This document shows positions 30,017 through 41,825 of a stretch of 42,706 nt of DNA, piece after piece. The stretch spans positions 1 to 42,706 of the IMG/VR virus record IMGVR_UViG_3300025138_000087; one strand, written 5' to 3'. The stretch's first letter is position 1. Every line of letters starts with the position of its first letter. The position numbers were made by a program, and so were the translations under genes. Source of the DNA: a virus. A model generated the notes under the pieces. It had not been told where the DNA came from and did no database searches. It was given only the letters and a program-made list of their open reading frames with translations.

Positions 30017-30421
30017 ATGACTTTTACACTAGATAAATACATGCCCTACACAGTAGGGTTTGATAGATTCTTTGATACATTAGATATTGTAAGTAATACT
30101 GATGCCAAAGGATATCCACACTACAACATTAAAAAGATAGATGATGGAGAATGGAAAATAGATTTTGCACTAGCAGGGTTTTCTAAAAAAGATATTAGCA
30201 TAAATGTTAAAGAAAACAAAATGACTGTTGATGGCGAAATAGAATCAAACAATGAAGATTATCTGTACAAAGGTATTTCTACTAAAAAGTTTTCTAAGAC
30301 TTTTTCACTAGCAGAATATACAGAACCAACAGATGCAACTATGGAAAATGGTATTTTGACAATTACTTTAAAACAAGAATTGCCAGAAGAAAAAAAACCA
30401 AAGACAATAAAAATAAAATAG
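30017..30421 (+). CDS. Hsp20/alpha-crystallin small heat-shock protein
   Basis: A 134-aa protein with the alpha-crystallin domain: YPHYNIKKIDDGEWKIDFAL, the GFSKKDISINVKENKMTVDG strand block, and FSKTFSLAEY with ENGILTITLKQE near the end. The order and the NGILTI motif are diagnostic of IbpA-type chaperones. Phages with such genes, for example cyanophages, place them near head genes, so a role in capsid assembly or in protecting phage proteins is likely. Strong ribosome site AAGGAGGTATATATG. Start of the packaging/head gene string. Confidence 0.9.
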   Translation: MTFTLDKYMPYTVGFDRFFDTLDIVSNTDAKGYPHYNIKKIDDGEWKIDFALAGFSKKDISINVKENKMTVDGEIESNNEDYLYKGISTKKFSKTFSLAEYTEPTDATMENGILTITLKQELPEEKKPKTIKIK

Positions 30422-32966: not shown

Positions 32967-33286
32967 GTTGTTTATCTTTATTAGTAGCTTTATCAATGCA
33001 TGTTGGTTTAGAAAATGAATATAACTATGTACATCCACATGCTAGATGTACAATAGACAATACTATACTAGGAGTTTATTATAATAGTGAATATAATATA
33101 AGTTCTTATATAGGAAAAATACATAACTACAATAATTTAGAAATAGAGTATGGTTTAGTTACTGGATATACAGGAAGTAATATTGCACCAATGTTAAGAA
33201 TTAAAAAAGATAATTTTTTTATAGCCCCTGCATATGAAGTAAAAGGTAATGTTGGAGTAGTTATAGGTTTTGAATTTAGATTATAA
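32963..33286 (+). CDS. Beta-rich secreted or membrane-barrel-like protein, 107 aa
   Basis: A TTG start overlaps the TerL stop (TTGA). A hydrophobic start (LSLLVALSMHVG) could be a short signal peptide. The rest alternates strands rich in Tyr, Asn and Ile (YNVH-like turns, YYNSEYNISSYIGKI) and ends in VGVVIGFEFRL, an aromatic end as in outer-membrane barrels. The first ATG is at codon 12. No function is known; small barrels of this kind occur in marine phage late operons (recalled). Confidence 0.55.
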   Translation: MSCLSLLVALSMHVGLENEYNYVHPHARCTIDNTILGVYYNSEYNISSYIGKIHNYNNLEIEYGLVTGYTGSNIAPMLRIKKDNFFIAPAYEVKGNVGVVIGFEFRL

Positions 33287-33606
33287 TGAAAGATATTAAA
33301 ATAGGATATAGAAACTATAAGATAAAAACTTTAGATTCTATCGTATCGAAGTGCAATGAAATAAATGGACAGTTTCTTGCATCCGATGGAATGATAGCTT
33401 TATCATCAACAGAAGATGACATATCTCATACTAATACTTTAATACATGAAATACTTCATGCTATAGTATATCAATGGGGAATAGAATTAGATGATAAAGA
33501 AGAAGAAAAAATTTGCAATATTCTTGCGAATGGACTAACAACTGTATATGTAGACAACCCTTGGTTACTACCTTATATACAGAAACAACTAAAAGGAGAC
33601 AAATAA
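33286..33606 (+). CDS. Zinc metallopeptidase-like protein (HExxH)
   Basis: A 106-aa protein with the gluzincin-type motif HEILHAIVYQWG (His 54, Glu 55, His 58). The motif and length resemble small SprT- or ImmA-like phage metalloproteases. The third zinc ligand may be in EEEKICN further on. It sits between TerL and portal, so processing of a head protein is possible but unproven. Confidence 0.6.
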   Translation: MKDIKIGYRNYKIKTLDSIVSKCNEINGQFLASDGMIALSSTEDDISHTNTLIHEILHAIVYQWGIELDDKEEEKICNILANGLTTVYVDNPWLLPYIQKQLKGDK

Positions 33607-33833: not shown

Positions 33834-35966
33834 ATGCCGCATAGTAATATAGGCAGTAGTGGCTTATCTGAAACTGATGAAGTAAAATCATTAGATGATG
33901 CTAAAGATGATTCTTATAGTAATCTAGGTTCTTTAATTGAATCTAGATTAAAAGAAGCAGAACAGGCACGTCTATATGATGAAAAAAGATGGTTAAGGTC
34001 TTACAGAAACTATAGAGGAATCTATGGTTCTGATATGGCTTTTCGTGATTCAGAAAAGTCTAAAGTATTTGTTAAGGTAACAAAGACTAAAGTATTAGCT
34101 TCTTATGGACAGCTTATCGAAGTGTTATTTTCACAAGGTAAGTTTCCTATTGGAATACAACCTACTTCAGACCCTTTAGGTGTAGCTAAATACGCACACA
34201 TAAAACCCGACAACTTAAAACAACAAGATAAAAGAATGGAAGATATCTATGGTTTTGAGGGTGATGGTAGAGAAATATCTCCGGGTGCTACTGCAGATGA
34301 AATACTAAATGGTTTAAAAAGTAAATACGAAAAAGCAGGATTTGAAGAAGGTGCAGCACCTGATTTAAAATCAATGCCTCAAATAGAACCTGCAAATGAG
34401 GCAGCTAAAAACATGGAGACTTTAATCCATGACCAGTTAGAAGAGTCACATGCAATATCTGTAATGAGACATGTTTTATTTGAAATGTGTTTATTAGGTA
34501 CAGGTATTCTTAAAGGACCTTTTAACTATGAACAAGCAGAACATAAATGGGAACTAAACGAAGAAGGTGAAAGAGAATATAAACCTATTAATAAATTAGT
34601 TCCAAGAGTAGAAGCAGTCAGTTGTTGGGATTTTTATCCTGACCCAGATGCTGTTACTATTGATGATGCAGACTATGTTATACAAAGACACGTATATAAT
34701 AGAACACAACTTAGAGATTTAGCTAATAGACCTTTCTTTAGAGAAAGTGCAATTAAAGATTGTTTAGCAGTAGGTTCTAATTATGAAACAAGAAGTTATG
34801 AAACAGCATTATATGATAGAGAAAATCAAGAAGAGTTTAGTAAGAATAGATACGAAGTCCTAGAGTATTGGGGTACAATGGACAAAGACTTTGTAGAAGA
34901 AACGGGTATTGATATCCCTACGGATATAAAAACAGAATTAGACGAAGTGCAAATTAATGCATGGATATGTAATGGACATATACTAAGATTAGTATTAAAT
35001 CCTTTTACTCCTGCAAGAATACCTTTTATGATTGCGCCTTATGAAATTAATCCATATCAATTCTTTGGAGTAGGTATTCCAGAAAATATGGATGATGCAC
35101 AAACAATTATGAATGGTCATGCACGAATGGCTATTGATAATTTAGCACTAGCAGGAAATTTAGTATTTGATGTAGATGAAACTATGTTAGTACCCGGTCA
35201 GGACATGTCAGTTTATCCGGGAAAAATTTTTAGAAGACAGAGTGGACAAACAGGACAAGCTATACATGGTTTAAGATTTCCAAACACTGCACCAGAAAAT
35301 ATGCAGATGTTTGATAGATTTAGACAACTAGCAGATGAATCCACAGGTATACCTTCTTATTCACATGGACAAACAGGTATACAATCTACAACAAGAACAG
35401 CATCAGGTATGTCTATGTTAATGGGTGCTGCAGCTTTAAATATTAAAACAGTAATTAAAAACATAGATGATTATTTATTAAAGCCATTAGGTGAATCTTT
35501 CTATCAATGGAATATGCAATTCAATAAAGATATTCCAGAAATACAAGGCGACTTAGGAGTTAAGGCAAGAGGTACATCTTCTTTAATGATGAAAGAAGTA
35601 AGGTCACAAAGATTAATGACATTTATGCAAGTAGCATCAAATCAGTTCTTAGCACCTTTTGTAAAATGGCATAGTATTATTAAAGAGATTGCAAAGTCGT
35701 TAGATGTAGACCCTGACCAAGTTGTTAATGACCCAGAACAAGCAGCAATATTTATGAAACTCATGGGAGAAGCAAATGGAAATCAACAAACTCAAGGCCC
35801 TAACCCACAACAAGGTGGCATGGGACCTACTAACGGAGTACCTGCAGGAGCAAATGTCTCAGACACACAAGGGTCTGGAGGTGGCAACATCGGAGTCGGA
35901 ACTCCACAAGTTGCAGGGGAAGGCGGCTTTACTGCACCAGATAATGAACCTCAAGGAACAGCTTAA
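33834..35966 (+). CDS. Portal (head-tail connector) protein
   Basis: A 710-aa podovirus-type portal. The N-terminal region (residues 25-120) has the WLRSYRNYRGIYGSD block and helices; the core includes PRVEAVSCWDFYPDPDA, typical of this portal type, and a long helical stem. The C-terminal 65 residues are Gly/Gln/Pro-rich and probably disordered. The last 191 bases overlap a separate ORF in the +1 frame (35776-35970). The size agrees with T7/HMO-2011-type portals. It lies after TerL and before the scaffold. Confidence 0.88.
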   Translation: MPHSNIGSSGLSETDEVKSLDDAKDDSYSNLGSLIESRLKEAEQARLYDEKRWLRSYRNYRGIYGSDMAFRDSEKSKVFVKVTKTKVLASYGQLIEVLFSQGKFPIGIQPTSDPLGVAKYAHIKPDNLKQQDKRMEDIYGFEGDGREISPGATADEILNGLKSKYEKAGFEEGAAPDLKSMPQIEPANEAAKNMETLIHDQLEESHAISVMRHVLFEMCLLGTGILKGPFNYEQAEHKWELNEEGEREYKPINKLVPRVEAVSCWDFYPDPDAVTIDDADYVIQRHVYNRTQLRDLANRPFFRESAIKDCLAVGSNYETRSYETALYDRENQEEFSKNRYEVLEYWGTMDKDFVEETGIDIPTDIKTELDEVQINAWICNGHILRLVLNPFTPARIPFMIAPYEINPYQFFGVGIPENMDDAQTIMNGHARMAIDNLALAGNLVFDVDETMLVPGQDMSVYPGKIFRRQSGQTGQAIHGLRFPNTAPENMQMFDRFRQLADESTGIPSYSHGQTGIQSTTRTASGMSMLMGAAALNIKTVIKNIDDYLLKPLGESFYQWNMQFNKDIPEIQGDLGVKARGTSSLMMKEVRSQRLMTFMQVASNQFLAPFVKWHSIIKEIAKSLDVDPDQVVNDPEQAAIFMKLMGEANGNQQTQGPNPQQGGMGPTNGVPAGANVSDTQGSGGGNIGVGTPQVAGEGGFTAPDNEPQGTA

Positions 35967-35970
35967 ATAA
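35776..35970 (+). CDS. Overprinted helical protein in the 3' end of the portal gene
   Basis: A 64-aa ORF in another frame inside the portal gene. It reads as compact helices: VAWDLLTEYLQEQMSQTHKG, then LEVATSESELHKLQGKAALL and an MNLKEQLK end. Small phage proteins with a WxxLxEYL...LExATxxxExxxLQGxxxxL arrangement stand directly after portal genes in other phages (recalled). A ribosome site (GGGAGAAGCAA) precedes the ATG, and it stops at the base before the next ATG. In the same stretch the portal frame codes a low-complexity Gly/Gln tail, so both frames seem to be used. Confidence 0.7.
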   Translation: MEINKLKALTHNKVAWDLLTEYLQEQMSQTHKGLEVATSESELHKLQGKAALLHQIMNLKEQLK

Positions 35971-37725
35971 ATGTCAGCACTATCAGACTTACAAAAAAAA
36001 TTAGAAAAAGAATCACAGGGAATTATGTTTCCTTTTAGTGCTAAAACACCTACAGTAGATACAACACAACAAGTATATAATTCTGCCACTGATGGTATTA
36101 TGAATATGCAAGGTAAAAAATATGTAGGTCCTGATTCTGTTGTACAATACGGAGCAGAAGGACAAAGAAATTTAAAACAAATAGAAGCACCAATGCTTCC
36201 ACAGTTTGATGCAACACAATTTCCAAAAGCAGGTGAAGGTATTGTACAAACACCTACTCCTATAAACCCACCTACAATAGGTCCTATACAACCTCTTGAA
36301 CCTGACCAACCTGCTGTAGACCCATGCCCATCCGGATTTAAATTCGACCCACAACTACAAAGATGTGTTCCAATAGAAAGACAACAAGGTGATAGACGTG
36401 ATAGACAAGTTGTAGTCGATGGACGAAGAAATATAGGAGATACTGCACAAGCTTTAGGACAAGTATTTAATAGAAAAATATTAGAAAACCAAGGAATTAC
36501 TCAAGATGGAACATATAAAGATGATGTAACATATATAATAGATAATAACATACCTTGGCTCTCTTTAATTCCTGTTATTGGAACACCTCTTAATATATTT
36601 CAAAAAAATAAAGCAGATAAACAATTACAAACTTTAAATAATTTAGATGGAGTTTCTGTTACTCAAAACAAAAAGGGTAAAAATATTGTAAAAGTTAATA
36701 ATGAATATGGAAAAATAAGTGTTCAAAGAGCAATGACTGAAGAATCTTTAAAAGGTAATTTAGCATCAACACAAAAAACAAATCCTGATGGAAGTCTTAT
36801 AAGAGATGAGTTTGGTAGAATACAAATAATAGGCCCTATATCACAACAAACTTTTGGTAAAATAGATGAGGCATTTTATGAGAGAGATAAAGATTTTAAA
36901 ACTTCTATTAAAACTCCTATTAGACAAACAGGAGGAGATGCTTCTGTTATGGAAGAAGTTCAACGTAGACAAGCATCTACAACTACTGCAGCACCTACTA
37001 TAGGAAGTCAAGCAGCTTCGGGTGCAGATGCACAAAAAGGTTTAATGACAGATAATAGAAAATTTGATACAATATCAGAACCTGCAGGACAACAACCTGA
37101 TTTTTTAGGGCAACAGCCTGAAAGAGGACTTAGTACTTCAGAAAGAAAAAAAGAAGAAAAAAGACAAAAAGATAGATTAGGGTCTGGTGAAAATATAGAC
37201 CAAAGTATTATTGATGCCAATAAAAAAGATTCTGATAGAGAAGCCCAAAAACAAACAGGCGACCCTACTATGAGAGCAGTCACAGATAGATATGGAAATC
37301 CAGTTAGAGATAGTAATGGTAAAGTTGTTCTTAATCCTGACCCAGATGCTGGTAGAAGTGGAGGAGGTTCTGGAGGAGGTTCTGGGGGAGGAAAACCTAA
37401 AAGTATAGTATGTACTGCTATGTACCAAAGCACAGGGCTACAAGATTGGGCTAAAGCTATGAAAATATGGCACATATATCAAAAAAGATATTTAACTATG
37501 CAACATCAAGAGGGTTATCATAAATTGTTTAAACCTTTTGTAAAAGGTATGCATATAAATAAAAGTATAAAAGCATTAGGTTCTCATGTAGCTAAACATA
37601 GAACACAACATTTAAAACACATAATGTTTAATAGTAAGCCTTCATTATTAGGTAAAATTTATAATAATCTACTAGAACCAATATGTTATATAACAGGAGT
37701 AATTAAAACATGGAAGAAGAAATGA
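35971..37725 (+). CDS. Modular structural protein with Gly-Ser linker and C-terminal module
   Basis: A 584-aa protein. Near residues 115-130 is the disulfide-like motif PCPSGFKFDPQLQRCVP. The middle (about 180-300) is folded with KIxKVNNEYGKI-type strands. Then comes a long disordered Gln/Ser/Asp-rich region. A Gly-Ser linker (GGGSGGGSGGG, about 464-475) leads to a separate C-terminal module of 110 residues, which starts IVCTAMYQSTGLQDWAKAM. I recall this module at the ends of different marine phage proteins. It lies between portal and scaffold; a virion role is likely. Confidence 0.6.
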   Translation: MSALSDLQKKLEKESQGIMFPFSAKTPTVDTTQQVYNSATDGIMNMQGKKYVGPDSVVQYGAEGQRNLKQIEAPMLPQFDATQFPKAGEGIVQTPTPINPPTIGPIQPLEPDQPAVDPCPSGFKFDPQLQRCVPIERQQGDRRDRQVVVDGRRNIGDTAQALGQVFNRKILENQGITQDGTYKDDVTYIIDNNIPWLSLIPVIGTPLNIFQKNKADKQLQTLNNLDGVSVTQNKKGKNIVKVNNEYGKISVQRAMTEESLKGNLASTQKTNPDGSLIRDEFGRIQIIGPISQQTFGKIDEAFYERDKDFKTSIKTPIRQTGGDASVMEEVQRRQASTTTAAPTIGSQAASGADAQKGLMTDNRKFDTISEPAGQQPDFLGQQPERGLSTSERKKEEKRQKDRLGSGENIDQSIIDANKKDSDREAQKQTGDPTMRAVTDRYGNPVRDSNGKVVLNPDPDAGRSGGGSGGGSGGGKPKSIVCTAMYQSTGLQDWAKAMKIWHIYQKRYLTMQHQEGYHKLFKPFVKGMHINKSIKALGSHVAKHRTQHLKHIMFNSKPSLLGKIYNNLLEPICYITGVIKTWKKK

Positions 37726-40449: not shown

Positions 40450-40716
40450 ATGAAATTTTTTATAACTTTAATTATACTTTTTAATGGAGAAGTAACTCCT
40501 AAAATATTTACATATCAATTTATAGATTTTACAGAATACAAAGTTTGTGAAGTTTTTATAAATGAAAAAAAGAATTTACTAAAACAAACAATAGAACATC
40601 AATTTTCTAATGATAAAGTACATAGCAGTATGGTAGCATGTATGACAGATAAAGAGGTTGAAAATCTTAGACAACAAACTCAGGGTAAAAAATGGCAACA
40701 ACAAGAACATATTTAG
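40450..40716 (+). CDS. Small secreted protein, 88 aa
   Basis: A hydrophobic start (MKFFITLIILFNG) looks like a signal peptide; the mature part is charged and has two Cys (KVCEVF, VACMTD), which could form a disulfide. It lies between the capsid and tail genes and overlaps the tail adaptor start by 25 nt. An exported phage protein at this place may be an inserted accessory gene. No family is recognised. Confidence 0.55.
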   Translation: MKFFITLIILFNGEVTPKIFTYQFIDFTEYKVCEVFINEKKNLLKQTIEHQFSNDKVHSSMVACMTDKEVENLRQQTQGKKWQQQEHI

Positions 40717-41825
40717 AATTAACTAACTTTGTATTAAATGAATTGAATGAAGTGGAACTTACAAGTTCTAACTTTAGTTCAAGCAGAGGTGTACAAACTT
40801 CTACTAAAAATTTTATTAATAAAGCTATTAATGATTTATATATGGCAGAAATTGAGTGGCCTTGGTTACATACAGATGGTACTCAAGTTGCAGTAACCGG
40901 ACAACAAGAATATGATTTCCCCACAGCATTTAGAAAAGCAAACTTTGATTCTTTTAGAATAGCACCTACTAATTTAATTACTAATGGTGAATTTACATCT
41001 AATATAAATAGTTGGACTACAATAGCAGGGGATGGCAGTGCAGCTTATAATTCCACAGGTAATGGTAGATTAAGATTAAATGATTATGCAGCACATCAAT
41101 CTATATCAACTATTGTAGGAGAAACATATAGTATATCCGTTAGAGCCTTAGACACAAATTCTACAGGACAAGCTTTTAAAGTACAAGTAGGAACTGCAGC
41201 AGAAGGAACACAAAATTTAAATACTACTATTACAGTAACAGATTTTGGTAATGGTAAAATATTATCAACAACATTTACAGCAACTGCAGCTACAACTTTT
41301 ATAACTTTAAATAATCCAAGCACAGCCACTAATATGGATGTAGATTATGTAAGAGTTAAAAGACAAGAAGAAGCAATTAAATTAAAACCCATGACTTATG
41401 ATGGATTTTTACAAGGTGCATTTAGAAAAGATGTAGCAGCTAATGATTCACAATATGGAAAACCCTTATTTGTATATAGAACACCTGACCATAAAAGTTT
41501 TGGATTATCACCAATACCTAAGTTTGATGATTACACAGTATTTTATGAATATTATAAAACACATACAGAGTTATCAGCACATGGTGATACAATGGATTTA
41601 CCAGATATCTATGCAGATGTAATAGTTAATAGAGCAAAATATTATTTATATAAATTAAGAAATGATGTACCTATGGCTAATATATCTAATGCAGAATATG
41701 AAGAAGGTGTTAGAAGAATTAGAACTGAAATGTTAAATCATATTGAATATATGAAAGATACTAGAGTTAATCTTAATACTTCTAATAGAACAACAAGCAA
41801 CACTTCAGTATTAACTGTAACATAA
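40692..41825 (+). CDS. Tail tubular A-like adaptor (gp11-type) with carbohydrate-binding-like insert
   Basis: A 377-aa adaptor. The N-terminal part (LELTNFVLNELNEVELTSSN; INDLYMAEIEWPWLHTDG) and the C-terminal part (PLFVYRTPDHKSFGLSPIPK; ADVIVNRAKYYLYKLRND) match the T7 gp11-type tail adaptor. Residues about 93-224 form an insert that starts NLITNGEFTSNINSWT, contains VGETYSISVRA, and ends MDVDYVRVKR. This is the jelly-roll pattern of CBM4/9-like carbohydrate-binding domains. The insert may decorate the tail neck or bind host polysaccharide. Confidence 0.8.
   Translation: MATTRTYLELTNFVLNELNEVELTSSNFSSSRGVQTSTKNFINKAINDLYMAEIEWPWLHTDGTQVAVTGQQEYDFPTAFRKANFDSFRIAPTNLITNGEFTSNINSWTTIAGDGSAAYNSTGNGRLRLNDYAAHQSISTIVGETYSISVRALDTNSTGQAFKVQVGTAAEGTQNLNTTITVTDFGNGKILSTTFTATAATTFITLNNPSTATNMDVDYVRVKRQEEAIKLKPMTYDGFLQGAFRKDVAANDSQYGKPLFVYRTPDHKSFGLSPIPKFDDYTVFYEYYKTHTELSAHGDTMDLPDIYADVIVNRAKYYLYKLRNDVPMANISNAEYEEGVRRIRTEMLNHIEYMKDTRVNLNTSNRTTSNTSVLTVT

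Follow-up and report, generated by a model that had tools for sequence, protein, structure and literature searches.

Can one stretch of DNA at the 3' end of a phage portal gene encode two selected proteins, and can such an overlap later be undone? Each viral overlap is thought to join one ancestral and one de novo frame, which constrain each other (PMC8227390). We addressed this question in the window, that is, the whole stretch of 42,706 nucleotides analyzed here (IMG/VR virus record IMGVR_UViG_3300025138_000087, positions 1 to 42,706). The original prediction was that the same 191 bases at the end of the portal gene carry two protein-like frames. We proposed that the portal gene ends in a dual-coding segment, that the nested gene (S) is older than the portal tail that runs across it, that the overlap was undone by duplication in sister phages, and that S has a role in assembly. 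To this explanation as a whole we assigned a probability of roughly 0.78; its parts differ in strength.

The portal gene and the nested gene S

The portal gene lies on the plus strand at positions 33834–35966 and encodes a 710-aa SU10-type protein with matches to PF23899, phrog_332, and phrog_1216; its PF23899 score of 105 bits, compared with a curated cut-off of 30, places it in the SU10 type. The protein shared 63% identity with its counterpart in Pelagibacter phage HTVC033P and 50–55% with those in HTVC103P, HTVC104P, HTVC115P, HMO-2011, and most CRP roseophages. With homologous portal, terminase, and capsid genes (the latter two by PHROG matches) in the same order, the virus is of the HMO-2011 type. 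Of the pelagiphages known, those resembling HTVC033P rank among the most abundant (PMC9038755). The window also encodes a SU10-type adaptor (PF24175) at 40692–41825. Thus, both the portal family PF23899 and the adaptor are shared with SU10 (Kuravirus); however, unlike that of SU10, the portal of the window has a C-terminal tail rich in Gly, Pro, and Gln whose coding sequence is shared with another gene. Two further genes of the window were recorded: an Hsp20/alpha-crystallin small heat-shock gene (30017–30421; PF00011, 68 bits) just 5' of the packaging genes, and a gene at 33286–33606 for a 106-aa protein with no Pfam match, in which HEILHA resembles the HExxH motif of metallopeptidases.

The nested gene S occupies positions 35776–35970 on the plus strand, in the +1 frame relative to the portal gene, and encodes a 64-aa predicted helical hairpin. 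As the original prediction had stated, a ribosome site precedes its ATG and its stop codon abuts the next gene: a GGGAG motif (35765–35769, plus strand) stands 6 nt upstream of the start, the TAA stop covers 35968–35970, and the ATG of a 584-aa gene (35971–37725, plus strand) follows directly at 35971. The product of this next gene had no family match; it contains long Gly/Gln-rich stretches that look disordered, and its C-terminal region is basic. Portal residues 648–710 and S residues 1–63 share a 191-nt segment (35776–35966, plus strand), which substitution classes, stop avoidance, and a codon-choice test mark as dual-coding. Within it, on the same strand, lies the portal tail motif T (DTQGSGGGNIGVGTPQVAGEGGFT, 35862–35933), part of a Gly/Pro/Gln-rich C-terminus bearing the pattern D-x-TG-x-GGGNIG-x-G-x2-P-x-PGE-x-GF. 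HMM and profile-profile matches relate motif T to the portal tails of phages with S downstream, and in phages where it stands free of S it is under purifying selection. In the computed register, CAGGGG at 35914–35919 (plus strand) specifies the invariant Gln-Gly of S and, in the portal frame, Ala-Gly(-Glu) of the PGE/AGE element. Translation of the segment in the portal frame would give a flexible C-terminal tail rich in Gly, Pro, and Gln; from a second start codon, served by a ribosome site of its own within the portal gene, S would be made as a separate 64-residue protein.

The length of the S frame is weak evidence in itself, because a further off-frame ORF that begins with ATG and spans 64 codons or more is found in 5.8% of these portal genes. 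It is conservation that decides the matter. This was followed through eight scans of viral contigs, one scan of genome contigs, and named phages, which provided 610 loci with a portal stop. S was present in 592 of them, and the remainder were mostly early-ending contigs or distant relatives. The Gln-Gly pair (Gln47-Gly48 in the window S) was kept in 591 of the 592 S proteins. Among the nearest relatives with a complete portal, the S frame was open in 78/78, and the portal stop shifted independently of the S stop. Across the sampled overlap clade as a whole, S was open in 399 overlap-type loci, with an overlap of 158–218 nt that was always in the +1 frame; both frames are conserved throughout the SAR11-type branch of HMO-2011-like phages. 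A Shine–Dalgarno-like motif preceded 88% of the S ATGs, compared with 11% of the remaining ATGs in the +1 frame of these genes. Recurrent stops or frameshifts in that frame, named beforehand as evidence that would count against S, were not encountered: the one exception in about 400 loci was L440, the sole overlap-clade locus without an intact S, in which a frameshift or misassembly joins the C-terminal half of S onto the portal linker.

A chance ORF was rejected on the combined basis of conservation, selection classes, ribosome sites, and codon tuning. As judged from comparative sequence data, the nested S is a real gene with a predicted product, and together with the portal gene it forms an overprinted pair, that is, two long frames on the same bases, conserved in relatives. 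The expectation of two protein-like frames was thus confirmed by conservation, substitution classes, ribosome sites, and stop avoidance.

The portals of HTVC033P, HTVC115P, HTVC103P, and HTVC104P show the full overlap as in the window (~190–200 nt, +1 frame), and S is unannotated in all four deposited records. A gene conserved across the group is missing from pelagiphage records because it lies inside the portal gene. S was also unannotated in the separate-gene phages CRP-345 (L085), CRP-1 (L088), and Aeromonas phage 1233 (L632). In a survey of HMO-2011-type phages, the word overlap does not occur and the portal is named solely among the core genes (PMC9038755), and in the open-access literature we found no paper on the portal/S overlap or on the natural undoing of an overlap by duplication.

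The S protein and its family

Structure prediction with 46 homologs gave a confident model of S (mean pLDDT 95, pTM 0.76), in which a short helix is followed by a hairpin of helices 13–36 and 40–57, in agreement with the compact helical 64-aa protein originally envisaged. Its supposed likeness to small proteins encoded after portals also held. By HMM, S is homologous to small genes directly 3' of the portal in HMO-2011, CRP phages, phiM6, and RHph_N3_13, and further matches were obtained in CHOED, MQM1, Slicky01, Rollin, and the gammaproteobacterial prophages L620 and L622. In HMO-2011 gene 50 (AFV50589.1), CRP-13 gp56, CRP-2 gp59, phiM6 gp11, and CHOED_090, the homologous S proteins share a gapless W..L..YL...QG pattern and occupy the same position in the gene order; these genes stand after the portal gene, which they overlap by 0 to ~80 nt, whereas the window S lies almost wholly inside it. 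On this profile homology, S belongs to a family of small post-portal proteins. A small ORF resembling S occurs at the same place in Marinomonas prophages L623 and L624 and in Stenotrophomonas phage StenR_269; since these ORFs fell below the HMM threshold, we did not claim them as members. L622–L624 are SU10-type portals in long Marinomonas contigs, apparently prophages, in which S or the look-alike ORF overlaps the portal end by ~20–90 nt.

Searches for a function returned little. No PHROG or Pfam family describes S, and its matches by Pfam, PHROG, and PDB sequence were weak, scattered, or to designed repeat proteins. A PDB fold search gave no significant match, only generic hairpins, among them the chaperones EscE, PscE, and AscE of type III secretion (all E >=1); the best viral fold matches were unnamed small phage proteins (E 0.007 and 0.02). 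The S gene nearly always stands after the portal gene and before the scaffold and capsid genes. Because of this position, the small helical-hairpin fold (a generic one for binding), and the near-universal retention of the gene, our best guess, a tentative one, is that S may act at the portal-scaffold stage, as a small factor in assembly or as an internal protein of the head.

Overlapped and separate arrangements of the two genes

In HMO-2011, the roseophage CRP phages, and the Rhizobium phages, S follows the portal gene on consecutive DNA with an overlap of a few nt or ~70 nt. The portals of these separate-gene phages end in DPTGAGGGNIGTGQAPVPGEQGFSGN, the same motif that the overlap phages encode atop S. 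At E<1e-3, a tail-only HMM of one group recovered 99 of the other group's 119 representatives, and hhalign of the two tail groups gave E 1.6e-13 over 34 columns; the S proteins of the two groups matched in 119/119, with an hhalign value of 99.4% over 76 columns. These profile comparisons indicated that the two arrangements carry a homologous tail and a homologous S. The distance from the end of the portal core to the portal stop was 84–91 codons in both groups; S started 25 codons past the core when overlapped, compared with 67–87 when separate, a displacement by roughly the length of S itself. Should common ancestry account for both similarities, then in the separate-gene phages the DNA of the tail and that of S would both descend from a single dual-coding segment, and a duplication, or a recombination to the same effect, must have taken place.

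We proposed, as the simplest account, that the overlapped segment was duplicated in the HMO-2011, CRP, and Rhizobium lineages, and perhaps in the CHOED/MQM1/Slicky01 group, whereupon the first copy would have retained only the portal tail and the second only S, relieving the conflict between the frames. That the overlap was undone in this way, each copy keeping one frame, appears reasonably probable from the shared tail, the shared S, and their spacing. Within the separate-gene phages, the tail DNA and the S gene, compared in register and by an offset scan, showed a similarity of 0.290 versus a background of 0.254 (sd 0.030); synonymous shuffles detected no codon-level memory of the overlap in either frame (z about -0.3), and no second S copy or recent tandem repeat was found in >500 loci. 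Loss of such traces is expected, because portal identity is ~50% and silent sites are saturated. Given the missing nucleotide trace and the unsettled polarity of the tree, the duplication is a step that we infer. Recombination could have reached the same end without tandem duplication in any one genome, by joining an overlap-type portal with its tail upstream of another phage's resident S. It would give an identical end structure, with an equal portal length and S displaced by one S length, and phage genomes are commonly mosaic; the two routes are alike on the present data, and S is too short for a reliable tree of its own. We regard recombination as conceivable but rather unlikely.

The direction of change was approached through the outgroups. 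S homologs occurred without the portal tail motif in L622, L620, and Rollin; in L622, a Marinomonas prophage, the S start lies 16 codons beyond the core, and the portal, which S overlaps, stops 30 codons later. By its narrower distribution, among the few outgroups sampled, the tail frame is probably the newer one: S is likely older than the portal tail, with the portal having extended through S. An ancestral portal may have ended shortly past the S start, as in the Marinomonas prophage, and a later extension through S would have created the tail. In the original prediction, either the portal had grown over a gene already there or the reverse had happened; the former fits these distributions better.

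The order of the two arrangements is less clear from the portal trees. Four topologies were indistinguishable (AU p 0.27–0.61), with a single separation neither supported nor excluded, and the overlap clade was weakly supported, with a UFBoot value of 43 and an SH value of 0.82. The CHOED/MQM1/Slicky01 group has a separate S and a related, shorter tail element, P-x-PG-x2-GFTGN (MQM1 E 2e-5 at Z=100), and therefore requires a second separation or a different root. In short- and mid-overlap phages (L090, L091, and others), the S start codon falls on the Asn codon (AATG) of a portal GFSGN element, and the final residues of L090- and L091-like portals are the other-frame reading of the S N-terminus.

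In the opposite course, the separate arrangement would be ancestral and, in the SAR11 type, the tail would have been deleted, the portal would have run out of frame into S, and a similar tail would have re-evolved. Parsimony on the best portal tree slightly favors a separate ancestor, because the nearest tailed outgroup (CHOED, MQM1, and Slicky01) is separate, and duplication traces are absent from the separate-gene phages. However, a motif of 25–35 residues (VPAGANPNDPTGSGGGNIGTGSVPQAGE compared with APAGANPMDPTGAGGGNIGMGQAPVPGE) would have had to re-evolve at the same place, with the same spacing, in a constrained frame. S does not dictate such a tail, because separate-gene S genes read in the portal frame show no tail resemblance. 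Deep-branching overlap phages that share the ancestral tail motif, seen in part, also speak against this course, which we judge improbable.

Selection on the two frames and the cost of the overlap

Substitutions were counted by parsimony in three groups (78, 86, and 77 unique sequences), so that the values below are counting estimates, not likelihood models. From the upstream region to the overlap, the portal-synonymous rate fell from 0.49 to 0.135, from 0.41 to 0.139, and from 0.35 to 0.103 in the three groups, a decrease of ~3.5-fold. Within the overlap, substitutions that alter the portal but not S had rates of 0.26, 0.25, and 0.32, compared with 0.10, 0.10, and 0.14 when S was also altered; the S-silent changes were thus 2.3–2.6 times faster, and the upstream rates were equal. 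The omega of S was 0.38 (0.29–0.49), 0.39 (0.26–0.60), and 0.44 (0.32–0.62), with all confidence intervals below 1. Purifying selection acts on the nested S frame. Analysis of synonymous rates in both frames, suggested beforehand as a check, came out in favor of the overlap, with the portal-synonymous drop and an S omega of 0.38–0.44.

For the portal tail in the overlap, omega was 0.72, 0.71, and 1.35, with intervals that include 1. Portal-frame stop gains numbered 0, 2, and 2, compared with 23.7, 34.3, and 28.2 expected (total 4 versus ~86). Relative to synonymous shuffles, the real overlap DNA reached z = 6.8 for the encoding of S and z = 7.5 for that of the tail motif. Selection on the overlapping portal frame is evident from stop avoidance and the codon test, amino-acid constraint in itself being weak. 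Taken together, the rates, omega values, stop avoidance, and codon tests identify S as the more constrained product and the tail as maintained but permissive. In separate-gene phages, the motif had an omega of 0.13 and 0.21, compared with 0.12–0.13 for the portal core; there it is constrained like the core, or nearly so. The tail had been described as simple, and it is Gly/Gln/Pro-rich, but in view of these values it is not merely simple.

It is quite improbable that only S matters and that the overlapped tail is a tolerated, functionless read-through. The tail omega is indeed not significantly below 1, and in the HTVC104P group S-silent tail changes proceed at 0.9–1.1 of the neutral rate; however, portal stops are strongly avoided, tail length is fixed, codon choice preserves the motif, and the motif is strongly selected where it stands alone. 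That S is untranslated, its open +1 frame a by-product of Gly/Pro/Gln-rich tail codons, is very improbable: comparable off-frame ORFs are not rare in these portal genes and S is known from sequence alone, but S is the more constrained frame, with ribosome sites, codon tuning, and a confident fold, and its homologs are annotated as separate genes in relatives.

Like phiX174 D/E and tombusvirus p19/p22, the window pair represents two selected frames on one DNA stretch; unlike them, its products also exist as separate genes in sister viruses. For an overlapped pair, the freed form of either protein is usually hard to know, and the mutual constraint is usually taken as permanent. Here, hundreds of genomes encode the two proteins in overlapped form, and close to two hundred sister loci encode the same two separately. 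Because packed and unpacked versions both exist, the cost of the overlap can be measured directly: the portal motif has an omega of ~0.13–0.2 alone, compared with roughly 0.4–1 when overlapped. The route by which an overlap is undone also becomes testable. If our explanation is true, the same two proteins would exist today in both forms, packed in the SAR11-type phages and unpacked in those of the HMO-2011, CRP, and Rhizobium type.
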